NCBI RefSeq assembly: GCF_037975245.1
Contig: NC_092572.1
Span: 1,651,501-1,715,500 of the forward strand
Origin: Apostichopus japonicus
Taxonomy: Eukaryota > Echinodermata > Holothuroidea > Aspidochirotida > Stichopodidae
Direction: 5' to 3'
Length of the DNA: 64,000 bases
Shown: in pieces, positions 3 through 64,000 of the stretch
Position numbering within the stretch: position 1 is the stretch's first letter
How the letters are laid out: each line of letters starts with the position of its first letter
Notes under the pieces: generated by a model
Database searches by the model: none
Told to the model about the DNA's origin: nothing
Seen by the model: only the letters and a program-made list of their open reading frames with translations
Program-made: the position numbers and the translations under genes

Positions 3-7613
<7,611 letters not shown>

Positions 7614-17907: not shown

Positions 17908-19059
17908 CCAATCAATCAATCAGAAGACATTTATAGAGCGCAAAAATAAATAAAAAAATTCAAAGGCGCTAAAGACAGTTATATGAAATAAATTACAATA
18001 CACTTGTTGAAAGAGATAACATTTGAGCAGTTTCTTGAAAATATGAACAGTCTGAGCATCCTTGATGTGATTTGGAAGAGTGTTCCATTCTTTTGATCCA
18101 TAGCAGAAGAGTAAGCGATCTGCAAATGACACAGCATGGGACAAACTGGGAGAAGATGTATATGATCTAAGCTGTCTGCCTGGCGTTTGTAGCTGTAGCA
18201 GGTCAGAGATGTAAGCCGGCGACTGTTTATGTTGAGCTTTGTACACAAGAAGAACAACTTTATACGTTGTTGTATGGAGAGCCAATGAAGAGCAACGAGT
18301 TCTAATGTTATAGAGTCATAGTTCTTACGCTTGACAATGACGCAGAGGTGCGTTGGACATTCTGAAGTTTGGTGATGAGAGATTTGTAAACACAAATGAA
18401 GAGGCTGTTTCAGTAGTCCAACCTGGAGGTAACCAAAGTGTGCACAGCTAGCTTGGCTGCTCCAGTCGTGAGCATTTGGCGTGCACGACTAATGTTATTT
18501 AGATGATAGTTAGCAGATTTGATGGTAGTTGTGACTTGTGCACTCATTGTCATACCAGAGTCGAACATAACCCCTAAATTTCTGACAGGGTTTGTTTTGA
18601 CGGTAACATCAACACCAGCAACAGTCACTGGGGGCAGATTGAACTTAGCCAATTGGTGTCTAAACCCAATCACCATAACCTCAGTTTTGTCGGCATTGAG
18701 TTTCAGGAAGTTTCTTGACATCCATGCTTGCACATTGGAAACACAGTCTTCAAGTTTCGAAACTGCCTGCTTAACTCCCTCCTCAAATGTTGGACAAACT
18801 GAAACATACTCTTCTGTATCATTAACTAGATTTCCGAGGGGTAAAATGGCGAACAGAAAAGGACCTAACACTGATCCCTGAGGCACGCCATATACCAAGT
18901 TCTGAACAGAAAAATTTGCCATCTACGAGGTCACGCCGAGATCGATCAGATAGGTACGATCTGAACCAGGCAAGCGGAATTTCATGTACACCCAGCAGAT
19001 ATTCCAAGCGATGTATAATAACTTTATGGTCAATAGTGTCAAATGCACTGCTCAAATCC
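17908..19059 (-). mobile_element. 5'-truncated, dead Jockey/CR1-type LINE
   Basis: Read on the minus strand, the insert opens inside reverse-transcriptase motif A (LLDLSSAFDTIDH). It continues through motif B (GVPQGSVLGP) and the family C-terminus (ALHWLSIQQRIK and SDLLQLQTPGRQLRS), which need frame changes near 18290 and 18400. Motif C is damaged: a few residues are lost and the expected ADD reads VND, so it cannot be active. The 3' end has GCGCTCTATAAATG and a (GATT)n tail, as in CR1/L2-like elements. Target duplication AGAA lies at 17904-17907 and 19060-19063. Copy 2 preserves the empty site near 59295. Confidence 0.85.
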
Positions 19060-19969: not shown

Positions 19970-22900
19970 TTATTGGTATTCTTTCCTTTTATCCAAAGTC
20001 CCAAATTCAAAGTTATAGATCGTCCGGGTGTCAATATTCTTCCAAGAATCGCCTGTTGAGTATACAACTGCAAAATATAAGAAATACCAACAACTATTTA
20101 GGTATCACATTCTTCGACTAACATTTCAACGGACAGAGTTGTTACTGAACGACGACAGCAAACAATATGATATTATGTTTCAGCTCATGCAAGAAGAAAT
20201 TCAGCTTTACGAAGCTAAGTGGTTGACAGCTATCAGATTGATACAGAATATAATATAACTAAAAGTTAATATTCTTCGGTTTTAAAACTATTAACTTTCA
20301 ATTTGAAAATAAAGGTGTTTTTTAATTACTTACTTGTAAACTTTTTCTGCCTCTTTACAAAGTTACCAAGCTTTGTAATAGTTTCTTGAGAAAATTTATC
20401 CATAGCGCAATTGTGAAACCTAAGAAAAGGTAGGAAAACACATTTATTTATTTAGCACATAACCTGTCTAATATATGCGTGATAACCATCTGAAAGACTT
20501 TCATGTTTTAAGCTTCACATCTGAAAATGAGGAAACAATTACGTTATAGTTAAGCAGCTTACACATGAATTAAGGAATAAGGCGTTAGTCGTTCAAAAAG
20601 GTAACTAGAATATCAATGGTATTGTAGACCAATTGGATTTCCCAAAGTGAATTGTACAGTCTGTTTCAAACAAGGAAACATTTCATTTTGTCTGTTTGTT
20701 TAAAAACAGATAATAACTCAAGATAATGAACAGTCATTTGTCGAAACACTGACCACTTGCAAATAATGGAAGCTTGTAAGTATAACGTCCATGTTTCACC
20801 TGAGAAACACATGATAAGACTTTTGTTGGTTCTGATTTGATCTGACATGACCTTGAATTTATTTTCACCTTTCAAATGTTTACCATTTGTGACATGAGCA
20901 TGTTTGGACCTGGCATCATCTCAACCGACCTTCAATCTTCATCTCGTGTGAATCATAAAAACAACCCTAACATGGGCAACAAAGTGTACAACTTTCTTCG
21001 TGATCAAGCACACATTGTAAGAGTATAACCCTCAGAACTAATGTTGACATACATATTGATAGCTACATAGACATTTTGCTGTGGCGTTAGCATTTACAAG
21101 CACTTTCTACCGTATGCCCTAATCTCGGCATCGAGTCCACGCAGTAATTAGCTAACTGTTACTTACAAAGGGACTAGCCCTTGTTCCTGGATACGGGTGT
21201 TTCCCCCAGAATCTCCATCCATGTTGTAAATGAAGTTGCTCAAGTTCGTTTTTCGTCACATAATAGGCTTAACCATTAAAACAAGCTGTTACAAAAGTAT
21301 AGTTATACAATAGTATTGTTATATGCGCCAATAGAACTGAGCTGTATTTGCCTGTAAATACAATAGACCGGTAAAATGACTTGCAGAACAAAGGTAAGCG
21401 CTATCTTACCAGCTGTACACTCCGTATGGCAATTAGCGTGAAACGCGAACGACAATAATCGACTATTACAGTCTCATCACATTCCGTAGTGTTTACTTCT
21501 GACGTAATTTGAATTGTCCGGCAAAACATCAGATATTTAGACGGCCTCTAACGTTCCTTTTTGTAAGATGTTGCTTGAAACACAACACCCATATCAAGCA
21601 TGTAAAATGACTTCAAATACTATGTTCAAACCTTCTACGAATATAAGGAGACTGTTATATATAAGATACACAATAACTTACTGGAGCGTTACGTTAATAA
21701 TTTTAGAGATGTACGTTGCGATCTCAAGTATGTCGTTGTCTTCAAGTTTGTTCTTACTGATCACAACTCGTTCAGCATTTGGTAATGATAAGCTCCTGAG
21801 AAACTGTACAGAGAAGTCTCCCTCAAAAACAAATGTCCCATTTGGAACCTATTGAAACATTAAGAGAAAACAATATTTAATTAGGATTATATTCATTAAG
21901 CATTAACACGAGGAGCAGAATCCCATGTCCACACACGGGCCTAAACACAAACACACATACACACATTACTGGTTGATCCCACATCATAATGTGAAGTCGA
22001 CTCCATATTATTGTGCAAACCTATGATACCTCCGATTAAGTCAGACCACCAATCCACCTAGTTTTAGTTCAGTCCTCCAAAGGTGTGAGTTTGGCAGCAA
22101 TTGTAGCACAACATTTAGTAAAAGTGTTCGATAGAGTACAGTATATAATGCCCAGAAGGGCATCGCTTCTCGAGATCGCTTCTCGGCCTTTTGGCTAAGA
22201 TCATGTGTAGTATCTGTTCCCTTCGGGAATGGTGATACACACCTGACGATGATCACACAGTCACAGTCCCGATGCAAGGGGACTGGGGCTGAGAGCGGAT
22301 CAGTCGTTTGGTAGTTTAGTTTTCGTGCCCAGGTTCTTTCCTGGGTGACTTTATCTTAAAAAGTATAATGCCCAGAAGGCTGTGTTATGTATGAGATCAG
22401 TATAACCGTATTTTCTACTACGTATTAAATGGAATAGAGACAACGTTCATCGGTGCAGTTATATCTATGGATTATTTATGTGAAGCACTCATTTAACAAG
22501 TTGATGTTGTTAATGTCTTAAAGGTAAATACGTATTTTTAGTTGATTTGGACAGAGGCTGAATTTGTTTCATTAATTTACTATATATGCAACTCGTAAAA
22601 CACGTAAAACAAAACAATCTAAGACTTACATTTTCCTTTCTACAGAAAGTGAGAAAGTCTTCAATATTATGTTGATGATATGGGATCTCCGTCTTTGTAA
22701 TAGTAATCTCTACCTTCTTATTTATGATATTAATTATTCGTTGTCTTACTGGAAGGTCAACTTCATGAAAGCAATCAATAAAGACATTCCACATTCCCTG
22801 TTTTTTAAGTGCATCAAGAATTTGTGTTTGCTGAGCCTTATCGTCGCTTAAACCAGAAACGAACATTAAGGCTGAATTGTAATCATCGTTTGTCAATTTA

Positions 22901-25900
22901 GTGTGGCAGAGTGAAATAGTTTCTGATTGCTCCTGCAGCAAATAATGTCCCAAAAAGAATTCCTTAAGAACAGGATACGCAGCATCGATACAATTGTCAG
23001 GACTCACAGTCGCCTTTGAATGGTATGAATCTACATTGTTTAAATCTACTTTAAGGAGTCCAATTGACAAAGCCTCTTGAAAAGAATCGTTCCGACTTTC
23101 TTCTTGCCAATACTCGATTGATCTCTTCCCTTTACAGAACGCTTCTCCAATGGTCTTTCTTAGTGCTGAAAACTCAGACTTTTCGCAAAGTTTGTTGTTA
23201 CGCTTTGAGACATAATGTTTTTCCATGCTATTGACGTGTGCTTCCATGATCTTTGACATACGACAATGATCGCCATGTTCATTGTCCTGTTTCGTTACTT
23301 CCAGGGCGTATAAATACAACCTAGTTGTAACGAATAATGGAACCGTATACAACTCTTTCAAGAATTCTTTTGAATAACTGAGAGAATAAATCATTTTCTT
23401 TACGAGGTTGTCGTCTACCTTTTTATCGTGTTCTTTCTGACACGAGTATGACTGCATTCTCACGACAGTCTTGCCAAGTTCACCTGTACCACTTTCATCA
23501 TTTATAGTTTTACGTTTGATAATAAAGTCCCAAGGATCAGTGCTTGGCTCTGAGCTAGCCAAAAGAGAACTATTTTCCGTGATTGGTTTCATATTTTCGT
23601 CCTCGTAATCTCCAGTTCTTGATCGATCATGGTATAAATACATTTTTGCACATAAGTCCTTAACTTGGTTCTCATTGAATCCTCTCAACTCAATCGCGAG
23701 GAATTCACCGGGATATGAGAAATTTAAGTTACGCGATGTTACCCACATTCTCATTTTGTGATATTGCTGTACTGTTGTTGTTAATTGAGCAAGTAGCTTA
23801 TATTCATTTCTTTTAATGTTCAATTGTGTACCCGAAGCGCTTGCTTTAGTTAGGTGTTCTTCCGTTGGCATTTTGTTCCATTTGTAGATATTTATTGCAC
23901 TGCACAAGTCACTCAATCCGTCAATAAGAACAATTACAGGTTGATCTGACAAGATTTTCGTCACGTCGTTAGTTTCTATTCCTGAGTCATCGGGAATGTC
24001 AGTCATTATTGTATCAACGAGACTCATCTGATAATTACTGTCAGTCAGATGTATGTAAATCAAAACGTAAGTTTTTTCGTCTTGTTGGATCCATTGGCTT
24101 AACATCTTCAGAATCAATGTTGTTTTCCCAAATCCTAGACCAGCCGTCAAAGCCACCCATTTTTCTGTTGGTGGGTTTGAATACAGTGTTTCTGTAGATA
24201 CATTGTGATGTCCCTTGTCTTTCGGTCTTTTAACTATACACTGGCTGTCCACGTAGATGGTATCAATATCAACAGATAACGTTTCATGGTGAAAGAGGTT
24301 GATATGCAAGTGTTTAGAATAACTATCACAAAGACAAGAAATGAACCTTGATAGATTCTTATCTTTTTCTGCAAAATAAAAAGATAAAAAAGAACTTTCT
24401 CAATAAAAAAGGCATCAGTCAATTCGAAACTTACAGAGAACACACCTTACACCTACAGAGAATCGGCTCTTGTTAAAATATTCTTTAATGCCTTTCTTCC
24501 TTTACTATAAATGAGTTTTTCTTCTTATTCCCTTTATTCGCCAAATGACTAAACAACCATTTTCAATTCCTGCACACCTCATATTGTGTCATAGGGCCGT
24601 TATTGACAAGCCAGCACCTACCCAGAGACACCAACATAACCTGCTGGATTTGATAGTTCATGCTGCTGCACCATCGTTAACGTCCAACTCCACCTCTGTC
24701 ATCATGGTACTTTCAAATGTTCCTTTCCCCACGGTGGATTGTCTGCAAGGTCCACCTCTCGGAATCGGATTTTTTTTTACCAGTCACAACATACACGCAA
24801 TACAAAGTGTTACATCACTTGAAATATATCGAGGTTTTCCTTCCTAATCTTCTTTTTATCACCCCATTACTAATTACCTCATTTTGTTACTACCTTCAGA
24901 TTTGATCTCCACAGCGCTGAATCCTCTCATTGATTTTTCCTATCATAATTATTTCCTCTATCTTGATATGTCTATTTTTGTTATATTCATTGCTAACTTC
25001 CCTAGTTCATATATATGTCCATCTTCGTGTTTTTATATGTTCTTAGTTTGTATTCGTTTCACTTAGCTCTGAAGATATTGCTGGTATCAAAACGTCATAC
25101 CCTCTAAATTGTGCACATTTATATATATTTTTTGTCCTTTATTAGCAGTAGACAAGCAATTTGCTAAAAATTGTGCCCTTTGTTTTACAAATTTGATATC
25201 AATGAATCAACGAACTTACTATTAAGTGATCTATGTTTCTGCGATCTGGTGTTGAATTTTTCAACATTTTCATGTGACCCCTCCTGAAAAAGTTAAGCAT
25301 AGTAAATTCTCAGATGATTATTTTAAGAAATTGTGTTAGGCTACATGATATCTTCGATCGAACATTTCCGAAAATGTAAAGAACATATTACATTTAAATT
25401 AATGTACAGCTACCTCTCTCATATGCCAATGTCAAGTATTACTTTATAATGCTGACATCATATAGGCTTTAGTAATTAAACACAAATACAAAACAAAATA
25501 TTACTGTTGAAAATTACCTGTACACTCATTCCAATGGTTACTTCATCGCTCTTTGCACGCTCACCCCCTAAAAGGGAAATGAAACTTTCTTGGTAATATC
25601 GTCAATGTAAGAGCTAATGCATTATTCATTTATTTCTGTTGAAGTGACGCATTAATATATATGTGTGAAGGTTGAATACTAAAGTGTATATTATGATATT
25701 TATTATCAACCCTAACAAGTATCTTACCAGGCTTTTTCGTTTCTTGCTTTCCATTGGTCTTCTTTCGTACAAAACAAATCAGAAGAATTAGAGAAACTAC
25801 TAAAATAACCCCGACGAGGGATATCACCAACCAAAACATCAATGGTGGATTATGCAATTTTAGAGATACTGTAGAAGTATTTTCAACAGCTGGCTTTCCT

Positions 25901-28374
25901 GCTGGACAGGGATCTGAATAGATGAAATCAAACAGTTTAAAATGAAAAACGTTATCAACTATACATTTCACAACACAACAAGTGTACAATCTGGACAATA
26001 CTTGTATCATACTTGTTTACTTCAGTGAATGCCTACTGTTTTATCACTTGGATATATTTCAAACCGTTGGTTTGACTTACAGACACCACGTAGACTGTTA
26101 GACACCTAGTATTTCTCTAATAATCCTTAACGAACGCTATCCTTCTGAAACTGTTAGTTGTTTGTTTTTGTTTTTGTTTTGTGTTTGGTTTCTTATTATC
26201 GCTTGTTTTGCATATTCTTATGTATATGCTACATGCTTTAACAGAACATTTCTTTTATCTATTTACTAAAATGGAAGTCGACAACTATCATGTCATTTGA
26301 TTGAACATTCATTAATTCATGCTCTAGACGATATTAAATTGACTATAGTTGGTCAACATAAACATAGGCATGTATATTACAAACGCGGTCACAATTATAT
26401 AGAAAGATCGATTGGATAGACGCGTTCACTGACACTTAATTTGGACTTACCAGAGGTTACCCTGATGTAACTGTCTTTACGGTGCAAAACGTTTATGCCA
26501 TCTTGTGCCAGACATCTTATATCCGCAAAACCGCCACATTCGTCGAACGAGTATTTGGCAGATGTAGATGTGTCCCATGTGCCCAATATTTCATTTTTCT
26601 GTGAAGTGGATTCGCCTGTAGTAAACTGAAGATGCTTGCTACGTCTAATCTCCAATCGAAGCGGAAATTTTGGTCGAGATTCAGTAACTGAACACTGTAA
26701 CTGACCCGTTCGGTTTATTTGTAGTGAACAATTCAAACATGAAGAACACTTAGCAATCAGTGGACATCCCTGTAGTGGACTGACTGGAAAAAAAATATAT
26801 GCAATTCATATTGGCTGTTTTTTTGCAGTAAATGAAAAGTTGCATTCCAAATTCTATGTTTTAATAAACTATTGCTCTCTGGGCTGTTTGAACGCGTTCT
26901 TCTCTTAGTCGAACAGCAGAGGCACCAATATGACACGTGCAAATATTTACAACAGAAAATAATCTTTATATTTCAGGATGATTTTATAAGTGAACAATAC
27001 TTTAAATAATGTCATCGTCTATTGGTTTAACCACTTACAGAATAATCAGATAAGGGGACATACTGAAAATCAATTTCAGACTTTGAACCAAGACATACAC
27101 TAATAAGAGAAGCAAATCTCCATTCATCAAAAATGTTCATCAAATGCTTCTCATTTAAGTACTTGGCTGGATTTCGTATAGATTTGTTGTTGCATCTACA
27201 AGTGATAATTAACTGTAAAAGTGACAAGTGAAAGAATATGAAGTACCTTGTATGCTAACGGTAATATTTTCTACTTCGTAATTTCCTGTTGCAAAGAATG
27301 CTACAACGGTATATGCAGCCTCATCCCCAATTTGAGCGTTCGAAATGATTACATCGCCGTTTGATGTGATATCAAATCTACTGCTGCTATACATAGTTCC
27401 TGATTTGAGGTTGTTCTCCAAAGAAAGGATAGGACTTGTACTGGATGGCGATCCAACGTACCAAAACACATCTGTTGGAGGTCCAGCTGTGTTGCATCCG
27501 ATCGTTGCATTGTGTCCTTTCTCGATGACAATATTTGACGGACAGCTAAGCTGTTCACCTATGTTCAATTAAAGATCATTCATGTTGTGTAACCTGTTGG
27601 CAGGCAACCAATTATTGGTATATAATTGTTAAATAATATTATATTTAATATTGCGCAGTTATTATACATTACTAGGTTTCATTTCAATATTTCAGTGGTT
27701 GTCAAAAACGAAAACAAAATTGACATCATCTAGTTTCCCTTTTTTGGATAAACCGCTCACATAAGTAGGAACTGTTTTATATGGTGGAGATCGTTATCCA
27801 TGGGTGGATCTGTTTCAAATGTTTTGAACGTTTAATGCAGCGTTGATCAACGGAAATCCCACAAATGAAAAATAGTATGGCATACTATGTCATTTGACGA
27901 CTCGTTTGCTAATACAGTTGCGTGGGAGTTTACATTTTGTTGTATTGTGTTAAAATGTAGTTTTTTTAAAATTTTATTTCCATTTCCCTTTCCTCCTCTT
28001 TTCCTTACCTCCCCTTCCCCTGTTGAGTTAGAATTCGATATGCAAATATATTTCAACAATTACCCAATATGCTTCCACATATATCCATCCCAATATGTTT
28101 TTACTTCATACCCACCCCCCTCCCCCTTCTTTGTGATTAAGAAGAAAAAAAACAGTTAGTAAATTTCCTCAGTGATGACGTGGTCTTATTTTAAATTTTG
28201 TGGATCATATTTATTACGCTACTGATTAATCAATCAAACAGTCAACGTGTCAAAGCCCTGGCCAATGCTTATTACCATGTTACGGAGTAAATTTAAACAA
28301 TCATACTTACCTGTGAAAGCACTAGGTGCAAAAACGATGACAAGCCAAGTCGAGGTTATGACAGGCACCATCAT
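19970..28374 (-). CDS. Ig-Ig-TM-NACHT-LRR receptor (copy 1, apparently intact)
   Basis: Ten coding exons, in transcript order: 28311-28374, 27247-27558, 26451-26783, 25728-25913, 25518-25567, 25220-25283, 22630-24368, 21682-21848, 20334-20419, 19970-20067. All borders are GT-AG, the phases agree, and the CDS is 3099 bp (1032 aa). The start MMVPVITSTWLVIVFAPSAF is a signal peptide, with an in-frame TAG five codons upstream. A pyrimidine tract plus AG before 28386 suggests an upstream 5'UTR exon. Residues ~22-126 and ~127-236 are Ig-like; 261-284 (LMFWLVISLVGVILVV...) is the membrane helix, followed by RKK. Walker A GLGFGKTT is at 413-420, Walker B VIVLIDGLSD near 481-490, and LRR-like repeats are at the C-terminus. 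Predicted role: a surface receptor signalling through NTP-dependent oligomerisation. The domain calls are well supported; ligand and function are unknown. Confidence 0.85.
20334..21848 (-). CDS. LRR-like exons 8 and 9 of the receptor, copy 1
   Basis: Exon 21682-21848 encodes ERVVISKNKLEDNDILEIA and exon 20334-20419 encodes QFHNCAMDKFSQETITKLG, each matching a leucine-rich-repeat strand-turn-helix. Copy 2 keeps both exons at identical lengths (167 and 86 bp) and open, at 61703-61869 and 60532-60617. Only about two repeats are present, far fewer than in typical NLRs. The last exon (19970-20067) ends in a short tail of unknown role. Confidence 0.75.
22160..22363 (+). mobile_element. Retroposon with U2 snRNA-derived head (SINEU-like)
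   Basis: Bases 22175-22219 match the first 45 nt of U2 snRNA (ATCGCTTCTCGGCC through GTAGTATCTGTTC) with one change (A to T at position 30). The branch-point-pairing GTAGTA is kept. After base 45 the sequence is not U2: ~140 bp of unrelated body with a CCCAGG/CCTGGG hairpin near the 3' end. The first 11 nt of U2 also occur just upstream (22162-22172). A 16-bp target duplication (TATAATGCCCAGAAGG) flanks it at 22144-22159 and 22364-22379, and copy 2 has the empty site near 62095-62110. It lies in the intron between the NACHT and first LRR exons, antisense to the receptor gene. Confidence 0.85.
22630..24368 (-). CDS. NACHT (STAND NTPase) exon of the receptor, copy 1
   Basis: This 1739-bp exon encodes residues ~337-915. 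It shows Walker A (GLGFGKTT) and a Walker B ending DGLSDL, where NACHT proteins usually have DGLDE. The sensor-like TSRNLNF is near 547 and is followed by the family pattern IELRGFNENQVKDLC. A winged-helix-like EFFLGHYLL is near 806. The exon starts after TTTTGCAG at 24369 and ends at a GTAAGT donor (AAAT|gtaagt, exon end 22630). Animal NLRs carry the same module, normally without a signal peptide or membrane segment. Bases 24258 down to 22630 have a counterpart in copy 2. Confidence 0.9.
25728..25913 (-). CDS. Transmembrane exon of the receptor
   Basis: The phase 1-1 exon encodes a short stalk, a hydrophobic helix of about 24 residues (LMFWLVISLVGVILVVSL and onward to ICF) and a basic stop-transfer stretch (VRKKTNGKQETKKP). 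Two small exons (25518-25567, 25220-25283) link it to the NACHT exon. The topology places Ig domains outside and NACHT inside. Confidence 0.85.
26451..27558 (-). CDS. Two Ig-like ectodomain exons
   Basis: Exon 27247-27558 encodes an Ig V/I-type domain. It has a B-strand Cys (ATIGC), core Trp (VFWYVG) and the DEAAY turn, but the F-strand Cys is missing: AAYTVVAFF stands where YxC is expected. An extra Cys near the N-terminus (LSCPS) might replace it. Exon 26451-26783 is a second, Cys-rich Ig-like domain (CPLIAKCSSCLNC, then LQCSV and DIRCLAQDG). Both exons are phase 1-1, the usual shuffling phase of Ig exons. Confidence 0.75.
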
Positions 28375-29765: not shown

Positions 29766-30123
29766 TTGTCCGTTGTTCTGCTCTTTTCTGTTAATAATTA
29801 TATACTTTTCTCATTGGTGACGCCAATTGTTATTATAAATGGAAACAAATTGAACAAAGAGAATTCGTTATCTGTTAATTCAGATAAGAATATAACATTT
29901 GAATGTATTGTGATTGAAGCAGTTTTACCAATTACATCTACATGGTACACAGACAATAAAATAGAAACGAACAATTTCAAAGAAGTCTTCAACCACACAA
30001 CAATCGTAATTTCATATTACACTATGAGTGCCACCTCAAATTTTAAATTACATTGTTCTGTGGAAGGTCCTTTTATATCGAAGCGAACGACGTCCTTATC
30101 GATAACTGTTGAACATACCGTTG
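29766..30123 (+). CDS. Isolated Ig-like exon, divergent from the receptor
   Basis: A 358-bp open frame lies between a CTTAG acceptor and a GTAAGT donor. It encodes a C2-like Ig domain with Cys (ITFEC), Trp (STWYTD) and Cys (FKLHCSV), plus several N-glycosylation motifs. It leaves in phase 1, and the phase-1 acceptor before 30576 could continue it. No start or further Ig exon was found. It may be an exon of a head-to-head Ig gene or a relic of one. Confidence 0.5.
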
Positions 30124-30575
30124 GTAAGTTGATCATTTATACACCAATTAAAGCTTTGTTTTGATTTGAGAAGGGAATTAAGATACTGCTAAATGTAAGA
30201 TACCTTTCTTCAAAACAAAATCATTATTAACGTTTATTAGGGATACAACATTTGCTGTATTGGATAATAAGATTTTCAAAACAGATATCAGCACATTGTT
30301 TTGACACGTTTTGATGAATGTTGTTACATTATAGTGCATGAATCTGCGTTTCCCAGTCACCAAACGGATGACAAAAGTCGCAGGTTTGTATTAATTTTGT
30401 AAGAGGTTTCCCACAGTCTGCAAGCAAATACGTATTGGCAGTATAGTCTCCGCAGAGGCCCTCTAAAGGTAGTTTCCCTAACGTTTGGTTTTTATATATG
30501 CCCAAACTCATTAGCTACAACTGATTTGTTGTTCTAATGAACAATTGTTCATATTCCGCCGTGCTTTACCCCATA

Positions 30576-35288: not shown

Positions 35289-35305
35289 AGCTTGCTATGA
35301 ATAAT

Positions 35306-36187
35306 TTTTTTTTTTAAATCACAGAACAATTTATGTGAAAGATTTCATTAAAAATGATGGCTCGGTAATCCCATATAACACGTTTCAAGCGAAAAAATAT
35401 ATTAGAAATTTTCCTTTTACTTCGTACTTTGGGATTATTCACGCCATTCCTAGTTATTGGAGGGGGTACCATGATTCTGTTTTGCTCCCAATGAGTGAAA
35501 ATAACTTTAATATGTGCATGCGCACACATACAATAACCAAAAATGTTTATAATAAGCTAATTACCGGTCTCTGCACGCCCCCGTCGTCTATTATGAAGTG
35601 GCAAGGTATGAATTTTCCAGTGAAAATAGTTTGGAATAAGATTTTTAGGCTGCCTTATACGGCTGTGAATGACCCCAAAGTATCGTATTTACAATTGCGT
35701 TTTCTACATCGTATTTTAGGCATAAATAGCTTGCTTTATAAAATGAAAATGGTTAATTCTCCACTTTGTTCATTTTGCAAGAATGCCGATGAAACGCTTA
35801 TACATTTGTTTTATAATTGTAGTCACGTTGAGCGATTCTGGGAGGCAGTGAATTCAAATTGCATTAAAACTAATTATTCTTTTAATTTGACCAACATTTG
35901 TTTTGGTGATATAGATAATCCTGTGAACTTTTTAATTTTGCATGCTAAAAAGTACATTTATACTTGTAGGTTGGATAACAAAATCCCACATGTGCACGAA
36001 TTTTATTTTAAGTTTCGCTTTCAACTTGACCTGCACTATTTCATTTCTAAGCAAAACAACAATTTGTGTAACCTTAACGACTTCTATGATTTCTTTATGT
36101 AAGCTTCTTATGTAAGTCTTTTTGCTGATTCTTTTGTATTATGTGTTACGGTATTGTAAATAAATACAGTGGAAAAAAAAAAAAAGA
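35306..36187 (+). mobile_element. 5'-truncated L1/Tx1-like LINE with 17-bp target duplication
   Basis: The insert is flanked by AGCTTGCTATGAATAAT at 35289-35305 and 36188-36204. It ends in a poly(A) tract (36172-36185). A 768-bp frame (35335-36102) without stops encodes the ORF2 C-terminus. It has the WNKIFRLPYTAVNDPK segment, LQLRFLHRILGIN, and the terminal Cys-His motif CSFCKNADETLIHLFYNC. The intact frame and clean duplication point to a recent insertion. A run of T directly follows the left duplication. Confidence 0.9.
35335..36102 (+). CDS. LINE ORF2 C-terminal fragment (255 codons)
   Basis: This is the only coding content of the truncated LINE. It contains no reverse-transcriptase motif, only the downstream domain with a C-x2-C...H-x4-C zinc-binding pattern, so it has no replication capacity. 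The frame starts inside the ORF; no native start codon is present. Confidence 0.85.
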   Translation: MKDFIKNDGSVIPYNTFQAKKYIRNFPFTSYFGIIHAIPSYWRGYHDSVLLPMSENNFNMCMRTHTITKNVYNKLITGLCTPPSSIMKWQGMNFPVKIVWNKIFRLPYTAVNDPKVSYLQLRFLHRILGINSLLYKMKMVNSPLCSFCKNADETLIHLFYNCSHVERFWEAVNSNCIKTNYSFNLTNICFGDIDNPVNFLILHAKKYIYTCRLDNKIPHVHEFYFKFRFQLDLHYFISKQNNNLCNLNDFYDFFM

Positions 36188-47770: not shown

Positions 47771-47887
47771 CGGGTCCCGGAATTTTCGATCACGTGACCT
47801 CATGGCACCATTTTGGGGCCAACTAATTCTGGCCGTATGATCGACAACGTACGTTCGAGCAGTCAACATCTGCGCTGCCATCACAAA

Positions 47888-48040
47888 ATGCCTGGCTGTT
47901 CAGCGTGGGGCTGTTCAAATCGTCCCGAAAATGGTTCTAAACTTTTCAGATTCCCAACAAACCTAGATAGGAGGAAAACATGGGAGGCAAAAGTAAACAG
48001 GCTTCACTGGAAGGCGAACTCCAATCACAAACTTTGTGAT
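47888..48040 (+). CDS. THAP-domain exon
   Basis: ATG plus 51 codons encode the N-terminal part of a THAP zinc finger. MPGCSAWGCSNRP gives the first two Cys, FRFPTNLDRRKTWEAKV the core with FP and W, and HKLCD the third Cys. The exon stops at a GTGAGT donor directly after LCD, so the final His of the C2CH set must come from the next exon, which I could not locate. THAP domains bind DNA in P-element and Kolobok transposases and in host proteins. The position inside the TIR-bounded element makes transposase origin likely. Confidence 0.75.
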
Positions 48041-49984
48041 GTGAGTACTTCACCTAGGCCTAGTACAATGAACTAAGATTCGTAACACTAGGCCTAGCCT
48101 AGTCCATAACCACAGGGATGTAAGTCTTCCGTATTTTTACGGAAATCCGTTTTTTTTTTAATTCCAATAAAGTTCCACAAAATTGTACAAATATCAAATA
48201 CACAACGCGGCAAAAATGCCTGGCCCGTTGCAGCAAGCTAACTTCAATTTTCACTCATCGATCAACCAAAATACCATTTCCTGTTACACATCGCATTGCA
48301 CTGTACAACATTGTGTGTGTCATGTGAACATCGTTGCGTACGTGCGAACTTCAAATCGCCATAGCTCATTTCTGTCGTTGAAAAACCTTGCCTAATTCAC
48401 GTTGATTCGTAACTGCTGGTGCTCGACATAAGTTTCGGAAATAACGCTTGTGATATTTGTGAGCGGCTAAATCTACGGGATACGCATATGATAGTCGATA
48501 TTCGTGATCGCTTTCAAATGTGAGACTGTTTTTTATTCCGGATTTCGCTGCGACGTATTCGTTACTTGGAGCTAGCCTAACATAACGATAGTGTGTAAGT
48601 AGTCAGAACTAGGGGTATGATGTGTTAGAGCGCTAATACTTTTGAGCTAGCCTAACATAACGATAGTGCGTAAGTATTCAGAGCTAGGAGTAGGATGCGT
48701 TAGGACGATATTCCCCCGGTTTCTCCGAATAGTTTTCCGGGGTTTTTTTTGGCTGCACTTTCATCCCTGATAACCAGGACTGTGGGTTACACCACACAGT
48801 CCTTACAGCTATGTATGGTGCACTGTGCAGTGTACATACACGCATAGTTAACATCACAGAAAACAGAGCATAAATTTCAGGCATGAAAATGGTCTATTTT
48901 TAACAAGTTCTGATCAAGAAAGTTGCGATGTTGGGATGAGATCTGTTATAAGGTGCATAAAAATATCTCTGCAAAGTTTAGTTGGTATATTCCTTAAATT
49001 GAAGGCTCCAGCGTGGCAAGACAAATCGGGGATCTACGAAGCACAGTGTGCAATACAAATCACCAAGGGCTAGCCTAGCCCCCTAATGAAAAACTGCTTG
49101 GCTCCATTGAGTCCATTGGCTCCATTGAGCTTGTTCGGATTATTATTTATGAATATTTGGGTGGCGATCTGGCAGACCATTGAAATGATTAATCATTCCG
49201 CTTTGCACTTGATGATTTGAATTGAACTGGTCCAGAACTCACTATCTTTTATGAAATAATATTGAAAAATTAGGTTACTAAAATATCACTGTAGGCTAGG
49301 TAAAAATATTTCCTAGAACATTGTGTCCTGTTAGAGGATAGCAGGTAAAACTAACAGAGTCAACTGAAAACCATAGGCCAAATTAGGCTCAGGAATCATG
49401 TTTGTCCATGTCATACATAGGTACGGTATACAGATCCTAATTCATATTCTTACAACCGGGCAGTTCCAAGCAAAAGAGGACATAACCTGAATTATTCTGT
49501 TCAAAAAAAAATCACTGCAAATTAAGTATTTTGGTGGATCAGAATTTGCTTTGCCAGAGTTGACCACTTTTTGATGAAAATAATTTACTTTTATTTTGGC
49601 CTTCCATGTCCCATGTACTGTGGAATGCCCCATTTCAAAGCTGTTTAGTTTTATTTTGGTGTTATAATGTAAAACAGTTTTTAGTTTTGCTGCTATGCAG
49701 AAATGATTAGTTTACAAAATATAGTGTTGCATGAAAATCTTCATTTGTTTTACTTTAGTATTTGTCTGTTTACTCTTTGTCTGTTTAAATTGTATTTTTT
49801 ACTGGACTTATGGGTTACACATCTTAAACGTGTTAAGGCATAAATGTGTAATGCCTGGTAGGAATTGTAGATATACTTCCACAATTTTGTCCGTATATAC
49901 TGTAAATGCCCTTCCTTTGCCCTATTTCATTGCCCTATTTCCCGGCAGAGAGTTATATTAAACAGATATGCAGAGGATTGTGCA

Positions 49985-56700: not shown

Positions 56701-57028
56701 TGTTTTTATTTTTAACACATTGATTGCATCGGTACAGTTCTTACATTGAGTTCAACTACAATAACCATGAGCAGGGAAAACTTACCACTATCTCACTTGC
56801 ATTTCTTAATGTTCAAGTGACCATATTCATACTTTAACCAAAGCATTTCTTCCATATTAGATAGTGTTTATCCAGAGTAGGTTACAGGATATTTTCAAGG
56901 TGGGCTATGTAGTATTGGCCCCAATTTAGCATGCTATAATTGCTAGAATATTTAATATCGGTCAGCTTGCGAGTCTACAAGCCTTCATGGCTTCTTTCGC
57001 GAGTTCCTGCTTGCGGGAAGATCACATA

Positions 57029-57236
57029 TACATACATACATACACGCATACATACATACATACATACACACATACATACATACATACATACATACATACA
57101 TACATACATACATACATACATACATACATACATACATACATACATACATACATACATACATACATACATACATACATACATACATACATACATACATACA
57201 TACATACATACATACATACATACATACATACATACA

Positions 57237-57267
<31 letters not shown>
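57029..57267. repeat. (CATA)n tetranucleotide microsatellite
   Basis: About 240 bp of nearly perfect CATA repeat with a few early variants. It gives long artefact frames (YIHT and CMYV repeats) on both strands. Confidence 0.95.
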
Positions 57268-59129
57268 GTTCCTAGAGGTCTTTACTTTCCAAATTGTTCT
57301 AAGGCATTCTAATTGAAAGAATAAGATGCCTGAATGTCCCAGGGAGGTAAATTTCCTGGAAGGTGGTAATAAAACCAGTTTCAAAACTTTGACCAAAGGT
57401 AACCATATTTGAATATCTGGTTTATTTGGGGCCAATACAGCATACTCTGGTCGAGAGTTGGCGTGGAAGCCACCATATGTTTGTAGTAATGCAGTAAAAT
57501 GTTGTAAAGGCAGCTGAAGGAGTCCAGTTTACCCCTGTGCTGAAGGTCATTCATCTTTTGGGTTTTTTGGAGAACACTTCAACCTTCCCAACCACAGAGC
57601 TCCCAACTGACCCGCAATTCGCGGGTTGGACCCACATTCTAACACCCAAACCCCCTGACCTGCGCAAGCGTCCCAAAAACCTGCATTGTAATTGACAAGT
57701 ATACATAAAAAATTGCATCAGATTTTGACTTAGCAACCATCATTTCTTTAGCATTTAGCATAATAGAGTATAAAACCTTCTTTACATCATCATTTGAACC
57801 TCAAATTAGGCTATATTTCATTTCATTGGGGCGAGCAGCAAACATTTTCATGCCACGGGCAAGAATGAATTATCACCTACTATTCAATTTATTGATGTTA
57901 CACACACAAAAATGCATATTTCTCAGAAAATTTTGGGTGACAAAAGCCTTTCTAGGTGCCACCATTTTACATGTAGGCATCACCAGGATTCCAAAAAAAA
58001 ATCAAAAGGGGAGGGAGACACCCCCATATACCCCTCCCCCAGGACGGCAATTCGTGGTATGGACCAGCATTTGCCTTCTCAAGAGTTGGGAGCTATGCAA
58101 CCATACCATTAACGACATGTCTCTCTAGGGGATTGAATCCTTAGGTTGCCGTCCTATGCTAGTGCGAATCAGCAGAGAGAGTTTGTGGATGCTACGCCTT
58201 CGCACCATTCAACCTCATGGGCTCAACATTCAGGAAGGACATGACTAACTTTTCTTCATTCCCCCTCCTTCTCCCCTTGCCCCCCCCCCCCCCCCCATTA
58301 CTCCTCTTCTCATAGCTTTTTCCACCTTTTTTTCTCCACACTTTTCTGTCTTTGTCCTTATCCCGGTTTATTCCCTACCCCTTCCCTTAATCCTCTCTTT
58401 GTCCCTCCACTGTTTATCTCCTACCTCTCCTCTTCCCCTGTTGGTTTTTATCTTTCATTCTTCTCTCCATCCCTTGTCTACTAATCCCCTTACATCTATC
58501 TCTTTGTGTTCACCATGCTCATTAACCTGTCTGTATTATGTGCGTGTTTTTTTTCTACACAGGCTCTCTAATGGATAAGCTGTTTGCTCACAGTTTTATT
58601 TTATTTTGAACTCAAGTATTGAAGAACGTTAGGCCAGAAGCAAGTCGTTTCGTCAAATAACAGTACATAAGCAGCACACATTCAGTCACATGTTTATAGA
58701 GAATTACACGACGAAACTATTCGCATTTTATTTCTTCAGCAATTTCTCCAACAACAATCGGCAGCACGAGATCATACGGCCCATATGACTCCTTCCATAA
58801 CAACTACCTGCTCCCACGAGCTGGAATAGCGTTTTCCCAGCAGTACAATATGCACTGTTCCATATAGCCAATAGAAAAATTGCGTAACTTGCATAGCACA
58901 CAGTACAATTACACAGTATGCCTATAGGTTACGCAACACTGAGAGGCAGATTAGAATCTCGGACACCTGATACCTTCGCGGTAACGGTACCCATTTGCGT
59001 ATGCTGTTTATAGCTAAGGATGAGAATGCCATATTAAAGAAATGAATATGTTGCCGCTGTGAGAAGAGGGCAGCATTGTTTTTACTTTTTAATCGGGGAA
59101 TACGTTGAGACAAGATTTTTGATTTTAGC
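57268..59129. other. Right part of the Kolobok-like element, no gene seen
   Basis: Holds a pyrimidine-rich tract with a poly-C run at ~58255-58480 and unrecognised AT-rich sequence up to the right inverted repeat. Confidence 0.5.
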
Positions 59130-60129: not shown

Positions 60130-63100
60130 CTAACTGGGTAAAGCTTCAAACTCTGGAAAACTGTGACTGGTTTTCCTTCTTTTTATCCAAGTACCATGTT
60201 CAAAGTTATAGATCGTCTGGGTGTCAATATTCTTCCAACAACCGCCTATTGAGTATACAACTGCAAAATATAATAAATACCAACACTTGATTAGCTATCA
60301 CATTCTTCGACTAACATTTCAACGGACTGAGTTGTTACTGAACGACGACAGCAAACTATATGATATTATGTTTCAGCTCATGCAAGAAGAAATTCAGCTT
60401 TACGAAGCTGAGTGGGTTGACAGCTATTAGATTGATAGAGAATATAATATAACTGAAAGTAAATATTCTCTTGTCTGAAAAAAAACTATTAACCTTTCAA
60501 TTTTAAATTAAACTTGATTTTTGATACTTACTTGTAAACCTTTTCTGCCTCTTTACAATTTTACCAAGCTGTGTAATATTTTCTTGAGAAAGTGTATTCA
60601 TAGCGCAATTGTGAAACCTAAGAAAAGGTAGGAAAACACATTTATTCATTTGGCACATTATCTGTCTCACTTTCATGTTTTAATCTTCATATCTGAAAAT
60701 GAGGAAACAATTACGTTATAGTTAACCAGCTTACACATGAATTCATGAATCAGGCGTTAGCCGTTCAAAAAAGGTAAACTAGAACATCAGTGATATTTCA
60801 GATCAATTGTATTTCCCAAAGTGAATTGCACAGCCTGTTTCGAACAAGGAAATATTACACTGTGTATGTTTGTTTAGCGACAGAGAATAACTCAAGTTAA
60901 TTAACAGTCACTTGTCGAAACACTTGTCGTCCACTTGCAACTAATTGGAAACTTTGGAGTATTACGTCCATGTATCACCTGAGAGACACATTCTAAGACT
61001 TTTTTTGGTTCTGATTTTATCTGACAAGCCCTTATTTACCGTATGTGACATGAGCATGTTTGGACCCGGCATCATCTCAAACGACATGCAATCTTTATCT
61101 CGTGTGAATCATAAAAGAAGCCCTAACATGGGCAACAATGTGTACAACTTTCTTCGTGATCAAGCATATATTGTAAGAGCATAACCTTTGGAACTAATGT
61201 TGACAAACATATTGATAGATACATAAACATTTTGCTGTGGCGTTAGCATTTACAAGCATTTTCTATCGTATGTTCTAATCTCGGCATCGAGTCCACGCAG
61301 TAATTAGCTAACTGTTACTTAAAAAGGGGCAAGCCCTTGTTCCTGGATACGGCTGTTCCCCCCAAACACAACTGCAAACACAACAGACCGGTGAAATGAC
61401 TTGCAGCACAAATTTTAGCGCTATCTTAACAGCTGTACACTCCGTATGACAATTAGCGTGTAACGTGAACGACAATAATCGACTATTACAGTCTTATCAC
61501 ATGCCGTAGTGTTTACTTCTGACGTAATTTGAATTGTCCGGCAAAACATCAGATATTTAGACGGCTTTTAACTTTCCTTTCCGTAAAATTTTGCCTTTAA
61601 GCACAACACCTATATCAAGCATGTACAATAACTTCAAATACTATGTTCAAACCTTCTACGAATCTAAGTACACTGTTATATATAAGATACACAATAACTT
61701 ACTGGAGCAGTACGTTAATCTTTTTAGCGATGTAAGTTACGATCACAAGTATGACGTTGTCTTCAAGTTTATTCTTACTAATCACAACTCGTTCAGCATT
61801 TGGTAATGATAAGTTCGTGAGAAACTGTACAGAGAAGTCCCCCTCAAAAACGAATGTCCCATTAGGAAACTATTGAAAAATTAAGAGAAAACAATACTTA
61901 AGTATGATTCTATTCAATAAGTATGAACACGAGTAGCATCAAGTGTGAAGTCGACTCCATATTATCGTGGCAACCTACGGTATCTCCGATTAAGTCAGAC
62001 CAATCCACCTAGTTTCAGTTCAATGCCCCAAGGGTGTGAGGTGGGCAGCAATTGTAGCACAACATTTAGTAAAAGTGTTCGATAGAGTACAGTATATAAT
62101 GCCCAGTACGCTTTGTATTGGATGAGATCAGTTTAACCATAGTTACTACTACTACGTATTAAATAGAATAGAGACAACGTTCATCGGTGCAGTTATATCT
62201 ATGGAATATTTATGTGAAGCACTCATTTAACAAGTTGATGTTGTTTATGTCTTAAAGGTAAATACGTATTTTTAGTTGATTTGGACAGTGGATGAATTTG
62301 TTTCATTATTTTACCATATATGCAACTCTTAAAACACGTAAAACAAAACAATCTAAGTCTTACATTTTCCTTTCTTCAGAAAGTGAGAAAGTCTTCAATA
62401 GCATGTTGATGATATGGGATCTCCGTCTTTGTAATAGTAATATCCGCCTTCTTCTTTATAATATTAATCGTTCGCTGTTTTACTAGAAGGTCAACTTCAT
62501 GAAAGCAATCAATAAAGACATTCCACATTCCTTGCTTTTGAAGTGCATCAAGAATTTGTGTTTGCTGAGTGTTATCGTCGCTTAAACCAGTAACGAACAT
62601 TAAGGCAGAATTGAAATCATAATTTGTCAATTTAGTTTGGCAGGATAACATATTTCTCGGTAGATTCTGCAGGAAATAATGTCCCAAAAAGAATTCCTTA
62701 AAAAATGGATACGCAGCATCGACACAATTGTCAGGACTCACTGTACTAAGAGTCGTCTTTGAATGGTGTGAGTCTAAATTGTTTGAATCTACTTTAAGGA
62801 GTCCTATTAACAAAGCCGCTTGAAGTGAATCGTTCCGACTTTCTTCTTGCCAATACTCGATTGATCTCTTTCCTTTACAGAACGCTTCTCCAATGGTTCT
62901 TCTTAGTGCTGAAAACTCAGACTTTTCGCAATGTTTGTTGTTTCCCTTTGTGACATAATGTCTTTCCATACTATTGACGTGTGCTTCCATGATATGTGAT
63001 ATACGACAATGATCGCAATGTTCATTGCCCTGTTTCGTTACTTCCACGGCGTTTAAATACAACCTTGTTGTAACGAATAATGGAACCTTATACAACTCTT

Positions 63101-64000
63101 TCAAGAATTCTTTTGAATAACTGAAGGAATAAATCATTTTCTTTACGATGTTTTCATCTACCATTCTATCGTGTTCCTTCTGAAACGAGTATGACTGCAT
63201 ACTCAAGATTGGCTTGTCAAGATCCCCGGTACAACTTTCATCATTTATAGGTTTACTTTTGATAATATAGTCCTCAGGATCAGTGCTTCCCTCTGAGCTA
63301 GCTAAAAGAGAACTATTTTCCGTTATTGGTTGCTTAATTTCTTCCTCGTGGTCTACAGTTCTAGATCGATCATGGTATAAATACATTTTTGCACATAAGT
63401 CTTTAATTTGGTTCTCATTGAATCCCCTCAACTCAATCGTGAGGAATTTATCGGGATATGAGAAATTTAAGTTACGCGATGCTACCCACATTCTCATTTT
63501 GTGATTTTGCTGTACTGTTGTTGTTAATTGAGCAAGATGCTTATAATTATTTTCTTTAGTGTCCAATTGAGTCCCAAAAGTGCTTGCTTTAGTAAGGTGT
63601 TCTTCCTTTTGCGTTTCCTTCCATTCGTGGACATTTATCGTACTGCACAAGTCACTCAATCCGTCAATGAGAACAATTACAGGTTGATCTGACAAGATTT
63701 TCTTCACGTCGTTGGTTTCTATTCCTGAGTCATCGGGAACGTCAGTCATTATTAAATCAATGAGATTCATCTGATAATTACTGTCGGTCAGATGTATGTA
63801 AATCAAAACGTAAGTTTTTTCGTCTTGTTGGATCCATTGGCTTAACATCTTCAGAATCAATGTTGTTTTCCCAAATCCTAGACCAGCCGTCAAAGCCACC
63901 CATTTTTCTGTTGGTGGGTTTGAATACAGTGTTTCTGTAGATACTTCGTATTGTCTCTTGTCTTTCGGTCTTTTAACTATGCACTGGCTGTCCACGTAGA
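60130..64000 (-). CDS. NACHT-LRR receptor copy 2 (5' outside the window, premature stop)
   Basis: Four exons in the window, in transcript order: 62364-64000 (NACHT, continues past the edge), 61703-61869, 60532-60617, 60130-60260. Walker A GLGFGKTT, Walker B VIVLIDGLSD and ASRNLNF are intact. The codon for Cys in copy 1 (TGT) is TGA here (62376-62378), four codons before the exon end, and would remove the LRR exons. Those exons are still open with the same lengths and phases as copy 1, so the stop looks recent. The last exon differs: a one-base difference lets it run to TAG at 60130-60132, with a longer tail (GTWIKRRKTS...). Whether the Ig and membrane exons exist lies outside the window. Confidence 0.85.

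Follow-up and report, generated by a model that had tools for sequence, protein, structure and literature searches.

Animal NLRs are textbook cytosolic sensors, and the locus described here raises the question of whether such a switch could be worked from outside the cell. The window, a stretch of 64,000 nucleotides at 1.65–1.72 Mb on contig C12 (34.6 Mb; genome 671.6 Mb) of the sea cucumber Apostichopus japonicus, which lacks adaptive immunity, carries on its minus strand (19970–28374) a gene predicted to join two Ig-like domains, one membrane helix (TM), a NACHT NTPase and LRR-like repeats in one chain. With an extracellular Ig region covalently tied to a NACHT-LRR, an NLR-type switch could be driven from outside the cell, and such a family would allow one to ask what an NLR switch does at the membrane. 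The Ig-TM-NACHT order itself has already been published; the new findings are the family and how far it extends, and chiefly the modular exchange among its genes. The open-licence titles and abstract openings surveyed describe neither family size nor module exchange in A. japonicus.

Gene model, predicted topology and fold

Ten in-phase exons with AG/GT borders form a frame of 1032 codons, from a start codon at 28374 to a stop codon at 19970; the single 1032-aa frame proposed in the first-pass annotation is thus upheld, with GT-AG sites and consistent phase throughout. Exon 1 (28311–28374) carries the start codon and a signal-peptide-like segment, followed by a membrane-distal, V-set-like Ig1 (exon 2, 27247–27558), a Cys-rich Ig2 (exon 3, 26451–26783), and the stalk and membrane helix (exon 4, 25728–25913; KD 3.3). 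Exons 1–4 all end in phase 1, so that exons 2–4 (each phase 1-1) are each a symmetric module. Two cytoplasmic linker exons (exon 5, 25518–25567, 50 nt; exon 6, 25220–25283, 64 nt) are also present in the NCBI model P0001, a paralogue. Exon 7 (22630–24368) encodes the NACHT NTPase with its Walker motifs and a following region, modelled with low confidence, that by analogy may correspond to WHD/HD2. Exon 8 (21682–21848) encodes LRR-like beta-alpha units, as judged from the paralogue model, exon 9 (20334–20419) an LRR-like unit, and exon 10 (19970–20067) the C-terminus and stop codon. The receptor intron 3' of the NACHT exon also holds a U2 snRNA-like piece on the plus strand (22175–22258; RF00004, 53.3 bits, cut-off 46; 84 bases against a 192-position model), which is probably a pseudogene. 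An Ig-like frame lies 1.4 kb from the receptor start (29766–30161, plus strand; Ig_3 21.4 bits, cut-off 30), and is possibly another, divergently placed Ig gene.

Within the window protein, NACHT was detected at 27.0 bits (Pfam cut-off 26.7) and V-set at 24.9 bits (cut-off 26), and neither Ig2 nor the C-terminus had a Pfam match above cut-off. For P0001 (81% identical) the V-set score of 35.2 bits was over the cut-off and the NACHT score of 26.6 bits slightly below. The signal segment, Ig domains and TM occupy the N-terminus, where NLRs carry an effector domain, and the Pfam search of the window protein gave no death-fold domain between membrane helix and NACHT. Sequence searches of the PDB matched Ig1 weakly to V domains (best E 2e-4) and NACHT to NLRP3 with E 0.24, and folds were therefore compared. 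Residues 337–1021 of the paralogue model have the fold of mammalian NLRC4, NLRP3 and NOD2, its Ig2 resembles two-Ig proteins, and its C-terminus has an LRR-like fold; from the first AlphaFold run (nine rows, pLDDT 35.8) the C-terminus alone was used. Unlike the mammalian NLRs, the window gene has no CARD or PYD and is predicted to carry a surface ectodomain and membrane helix at its N-terminus. All 18 sequences (the window protein and 17 others) carry a single hydrophobic segment close to the N-terminus and, further in, a single dominant helix. Prediction thus agrees with the surface topology suggested at first pass (N-terminal hydrophobic segment, Ig pair, one helix, NACHT), and the NACHT switch and the putative LRR-like C-terminus proposed with it are likewise supported, the former by the Pfam score over cut-off and the NLR fold of the paralogue model, the latter by the model fold in a region where Pfam had no match.

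The Walker A motif of the window protein (GLGFGKTT) is intact. Its Walker B motif reads DGLSDL, as against DGLDEL in most other members; the window clade thus differs in the acidic pair that follows Walker B from the remaining aligned rows, which have DGLDEL or DGLDEI, with the exception of P0008. ATP turnover may thus be altered in the window gene, and with the altered pair the switch of the window clade may hydrolyse slowly and stay on after assembly. By eye, Ig1 of the family and of the published receptor AjNLRC4 conserves a Cys before and a Cys in the B strand, and the usual F-strand place is mostly without Cys, a pattern that suggests an unusual disulfide.

Family extent and linkage of Ig and NACHT exons

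The NACHT exon matched 24 pieces of the genome, every one of them on C12. Three more copies are ∼82% identical (1.22, 1.26 and 1.71 Mb) and the remaining relatives 36–47% and 23–30%. The 1.71 Mb copy is the neighbour at the right edge of the window, on the minus strand, with a NACHT exon (62376–63998) that exits the window edge and has an in-frame TGA at its end, and LRR-like exon matches between 60172 and 61866 (61702–61866, 60524–60622 and 60172–60267). Ig1 exon identity to the window gene is 91% for this copy and 81% for that at 1.22 Mb. A search with the Ig2 exon (E ≤ 1e-3) produced 48 matches including the window's own, or 47 sites after two pieces at 1.435 Mb were merged, of which 44 are on C12, two on C20 and one on C21. 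The expanding family with an adjoining duplicate that had been suspected from the window alone was borne out by these sites and by the ∼82% NACHT copies.

Linkage was counted against 64 NACHT sites compiled from two genome searches. At 41 of the 47 Ig2 sites (40/44 on C12) a same-strand NACHT exon follows downstream at no more than 12 kb, and none of the sites has one on the opposite strand; when the 44 C12 sites were rotated 1000 times, on average 1.29 and at most 15 of them had NACHT downstream. Among the six non-linked sites, two (1.284 and 1.135 Mb) have a NACHT ∼1.5–2.2 kb downstream that was found in a later search, and for a third (7.594 Mb) the distance to NACHT is 14 kb; both C20 sites and that at 22.63 Mb on C12 have none among the compiled NACHT sites. 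Eleven loci were stitched from overlapping fetched pieces, non-contiguous ones (e.g. 0.92, 2.03 and 2.14 Mb) being left out. All 11 have Ig2 followed by NACHT, nine also have Ig1, and their NACHT identity to the window gene falls as low as 23%. Under a strict rule, a right-phase membrane exon lies between Ig2 and NACHT in nine; a tenth uses another donor, and no membrane exon was found between Ig2 and NACHT in the eleventh. The hydrophobicity of these exons was reached by 0/220 shuffles, 0/11 reverse strands and 0/100 intergenic stretches.

The spliced window sequence itself retrieved eight proteins, seven of them named A. japonicus. When four diverged family members were used to search proteins more widely, 21 were retrieved: P0023, three from Holothuria leucospilota and 17 from A. 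japonicus. The H. leucospilota proteins (P0022, P0024 and P0025), whose contigs are equal in length and hence probably one chromosome, are 31–33% identical over 97–99% of the query and have a matching domain order. P0023 is a 983-aa Ig-Ig-TM-NACHT protein on a contig of 3,538 bases, which we infer to be a spliced transcript since fewer than 590 non-coding bases are left and the genomic genes are intron-split. Of 30 distinct proteins retrieved, 17 unite the NACHT region, TM, Ig region and N-terminal segment in one chain, eight are without the N-terminal part (P0005, P0007 and P0016–P0021), and five short ones (P0009 and P0026–P0029) were left unread. In the protein searches, which worked by shared 5-residue words and two of which scored only ∼8000 candidates, every named relative belonged to A. 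japonicus or H. leucospilota; absence in other groups does not follow from this. The window gene is a member of a large sea cucumber Ig-Ig-TM-NACHT-LRR family clustered mainly on one chromosome, with a predicted domain order shown to be kept in paralogues of deep divergence and also in another sea cucumber genus.

Modular exchange of ectodomain parts

An array of 12 loci at 7.55–8.15 Mb on C12 (L048–L058 and L060) contains three Ig1 types on a single class of Ig2 exon, each type with its own intron and 39–62% alike between types. Nine loci could be typed directly from their Ig1. The other three, with no Ig1 within the fetched stretch, were assigned to type A indirectly: L055 because its Ig2 is 100% identical to that of P0010, L051 by its resemblance, judged by eye, to the NCBI model P0012, and L048 by upstream DNA common to L051 and L055. 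The introns and TM area that follow Ig2 show no sorting by Ig1 type and were therefore excluded from the type definition. Over the 70 nt 5' of the Ig2 exon, the 21 within-type pairs were 81% identical and the 45 between-type pairs 42%, while Ig2 itself was 91% alike within and 90–91% between them. Using blastn, all 66 array pairs aligned downstream of Ig2 over 729–1468 nt, and upstream of Ig2 the 21 within-type pairs all aligned and the 45 between-type pairs never did. Between L051 (type A) and L054 (type C), for instance, the downstream alignment spans 1403 nt at 91.9%, introns included, and there is none upstream. This combination of shared downstream and type-bound upstream DNA places the switch in homology at the 5' boundary of the Ig2 exon. 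Unequal crossing-over, a conversion of the 3' part and a swap of the 5' part are each a possible route.

By sequence comparison, a second exchange point lies after Ig2. P0008 (2.17 Mb) has an ectodomain 78–86% like that of the window family and a NACHT only 20–23% like it, the latter being 78–84% identical to those at 1.43, 1.45, 1.99, 2.06 and 2.19 Mb. Upstream of these P0008-class NACHTs, a window-type Ig2 was found in two pieces at 1.43 Mb; Ig2 exons 27% like the window's lie near 1.45 and 2.19 Mb, an Ig1 35% like that of P0008 lies near 2.06 Mb, and no Ig exon was found for the NACHT at 1.99 Mb. In Holothuria, P0025 and P0022 are 73% identical in NACHT, 29% in Ig1 and 39% in Ig2. At the level of gene sequence, outer modules are shown to have been exchanged between genes.

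Such exchange points to a way in which echinoderms could diversify their receptors. Symmetric phase-1 introns could serve as swap sites for whole ectodomains between NACHT classes, V-like Ig1 exons with upstream DNA of their own per type could be moved onto a common chassis, and exchange would then couple new outer specificities to different inner switches. We put forward only tentatively, at rather less than even odds, that this amounts to a germline combinatorial repertoire, with Ig1 placed onto a common Ig2-TM-NACHT chassis, ectodomains distributed across NACHT classes and a presumed role in recognition. A parallel is provided by the zebrafish NLR-B30.2 family, in which the recognition domain was reported in 2016 to be exchanged across NACHT groups by gene conversion (PMC4852459). 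Both families thus have NACHT groups with an exchanged recognition module, as far as the zebrafish report describes it; the module is the C-terminal B30.2 in zebrafish and the N-terminal, predicted extracellular Ig in sea cucumbers, at the opposite end of the protein and, by prediction, across the membrane.

Relation to published receptors and possible mechanism

The first-pass annotation knew of no described family with this domain order, a view that does not stand. AjNLRC4, an Ig-TM-NACHT membrane receptor of A. japonicus, was described in 2021 as residing at the coelomocyte membrane, where its Ig region is reported to bind microbes, dimerise and internalise (PMC8699970), and was afterwards tied to caspase-1 and MLKL (PMC11932488). 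A second A. japonicus protein, AjNLR-new (PIK48001.1; 1197 aa), was reported in 2026 by authors who state that several such genes were screened (PMC13133943). Like the window gene it is described as combining Ig, TM and NACHT in one protein; it differs, on a comparison by description alone, in a reported NACHT outside and Ig inside. The apodid sea cucumber Chiridota heheva was reported in 2022 to have V-set NLRs, a combination said there not to occur among sea urchin NLRs (PMC8913654); compared by description alone, they share V-set Ig and NACHT with the window gene.

We rejected identity of the window gene with AjNLRC4. Four AjNLRC4 primers (EX-F, EX-R, qF and qR) map to C16 at 4.497–4.499 Mb (24/25, 24/25, 22/22 and 20/20 bases), and the best primer matches in the window cover only 13–18 of 19–25 bases. 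Next at the C16 locus come a hydrophobic frame resembling a membrane helix and a NACHT exon (66.4 bits). Family profiles each match twice in its ectodomain (Ig1 42.9 and 17.0 bits; Ig2 36.4 and 23.0 bits; at most 8.0 and 6.8, respectively, among 1000 shuffled decoys), and AjNLRC4 therefore looks to be built from two copies of one Ig1-Ig2 unit. Its NACHT lies on the side of eight other genome NACHTs (L001–L008, the best Pfam scorers), across a long 100/99 branch from the window family, and a tree with five of these gave a 100/100 branch. In the five-NACHT tree the Ig family plus AjNLRC4 stood against the rest at 51/84, with long branches; a single origin of the Ig-NACHT fusion, AjNLRC4 included, is neither shown nor rejected by these trees. 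The two genes have in common the species, the Ig-TM-NACHT order (in the window gene by prediction) and a homologous ectodomain. AjNLRC4 differs in its chromosome, doubled Ig1-Ig2 unit and deeply separated NACHT, and in being reported without LRR, as far as the published description goes, whereas the window gene has an LRR-like end. Given the C16 locus, the doubled Ig unit and the separate NACHT, the window gene is a relative of AjNLRC4 in architecture and ectodomain, and not the published gene itself.

Both AjNLRC4-IN primers as printed (PMC8699970) match C14 exactly at 1.474 and 1.477 Mb (positions 1565 and 4551 of L066, C14:1472600–1482500), with no other genome site at ≤2 mismatches. The gene at these sites encodes a ZZ finger (45.7 bits) and a C-terminal UBA similar to that of sequestosome-1/p62 (E 2e-13), and the printed primers would amplify part of p62, not NACHT. 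The discrepancy may be a mere table error; if it is not, the beta-actin binding reported for the intracellular part of AjNLRC4 (PMC8699970) would concern p62. The siRNA found no placement, its best match in the AjNLRC4 locus being 15/19. The primer discrepancy bears on the published biochemistry of how such a NACHT acts inside the cell, and it weakens the analogy with AjNLRC4 for mechanism.

Selection was assessed between the window gene and the 1.22 and 1.71 Mb copies. Values of dN/dS were 0.36–0.53 for Ig1, 0.30–0.38 for Ig2, 0.52–0.77 for NACHT and 0.49–1.02 for the short TM exon, and thus below 1 in all three pairs for the Ig1, Ig2 and NACHT exons, with the TM exon at 1.02 in one. The contrast of ectodomain and NACHT gave p = 0.002, 0.09 and 0.14 in three non-independent pairs. 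If anything, the ectodomain appears to evolve more slowly than NACHT in the window clade, contrary to what is predicted for a fast-evolving outer sensor.

We consider it probable that, taken as a whole, the window gene encodes a type I single-pass surface receptor of the Ig-Ig-TM-NACHT-LRR family in which Ig binding clusters NACHT. In family membership and surface topology our confidence is high; the outside-in mechanism driven by Ig, proposed by analogy with AjNLRC4, we rate at even odds. The Ig pair would bind a microbial or self ligand on coelomocytes, and clustering in the membrane would bring the tethered NACHT domains together. These could then exchange nucleotide, form an NLR-type oligomer beneath the plasma membrane and recruit uptake or death machinery, with the short LRR serving autoinhibition rather than sensing. 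Since Pfam gave no death-fold domain between membrane and NACHT, the output is probably a scaffold interaction. The reverse direction, in which NACHT-LRR senses a cytosolic cue, oligomerises and clusters the Ig ectodomains for greater adhesion or phagocytic avidity, would fit the NLR order kept in NACHT-LRR and the slower ectodomain of the window clade, in which the NACHT exon outpaces the Ig exons. We regard it as unlikely, as the 7.5–8.1 Mb array swaps Ig1 while Ig2 stays ∼91% alike, and the Ig region of AjNLRC4 is reported to bind microbes (PMC8699970).

The sole NCBI protein identical (100%) to the window locus, P0005, begins inside the NACHT exon, past the P-loop, and omits the Ig/TM exons, as might be expected of a tandem Ig-TM gene and NACHT gene joined by the exon model alone; we take it as a truncated prediction. 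Matched phases, the order conserved across loci, the 983 aa of P0023 from a 3,538-base contig and the 17 complete chains leave very little probability for two such units. The separate transcripts that the first-pass annotation named as a challenge to its model are countered at family level by P0023 and these chains, and separate Ig and NACHT genes were rejected for the family alone. Inverted topology, with NACHT outside and Ig inside, has in its favour the published surface-binding and TMHMM data on AjNLR-new (PMC13133943); set against the N-terminal hydrophobic segment and single dominant internal helix in 18/18 sequences, and with a signal peptide misread as a TM helix able, we infer, to yield just such a prediction, it is very improbable for the window gene. 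In-frame stops in several family members, the neighbour included, and the altered Walker B would suit a decaying copy without function, an improbable reading for a gene with ten exons and all splice sites intact and with dN/dS below 1 in Ig1, Ig2 and NACHT, if 1.02 in the TM exon of one pair.

Elsewhere in the window, LINE-type pieces were observed at 18413–18922 on the minus strand (RVT_1 29.5 bits, slightly below the cut-off of 29.6) and at 35305–36099 on the plus strand (zf-RVT 37.1 bits), together with plus-strand Myb-like (7371–7610; 23.5 bits) and THAP (47798–48073; 27.9 bits) frames. A long tetranucleotide repeat at 56985–57281 contains several open frames on both strands.
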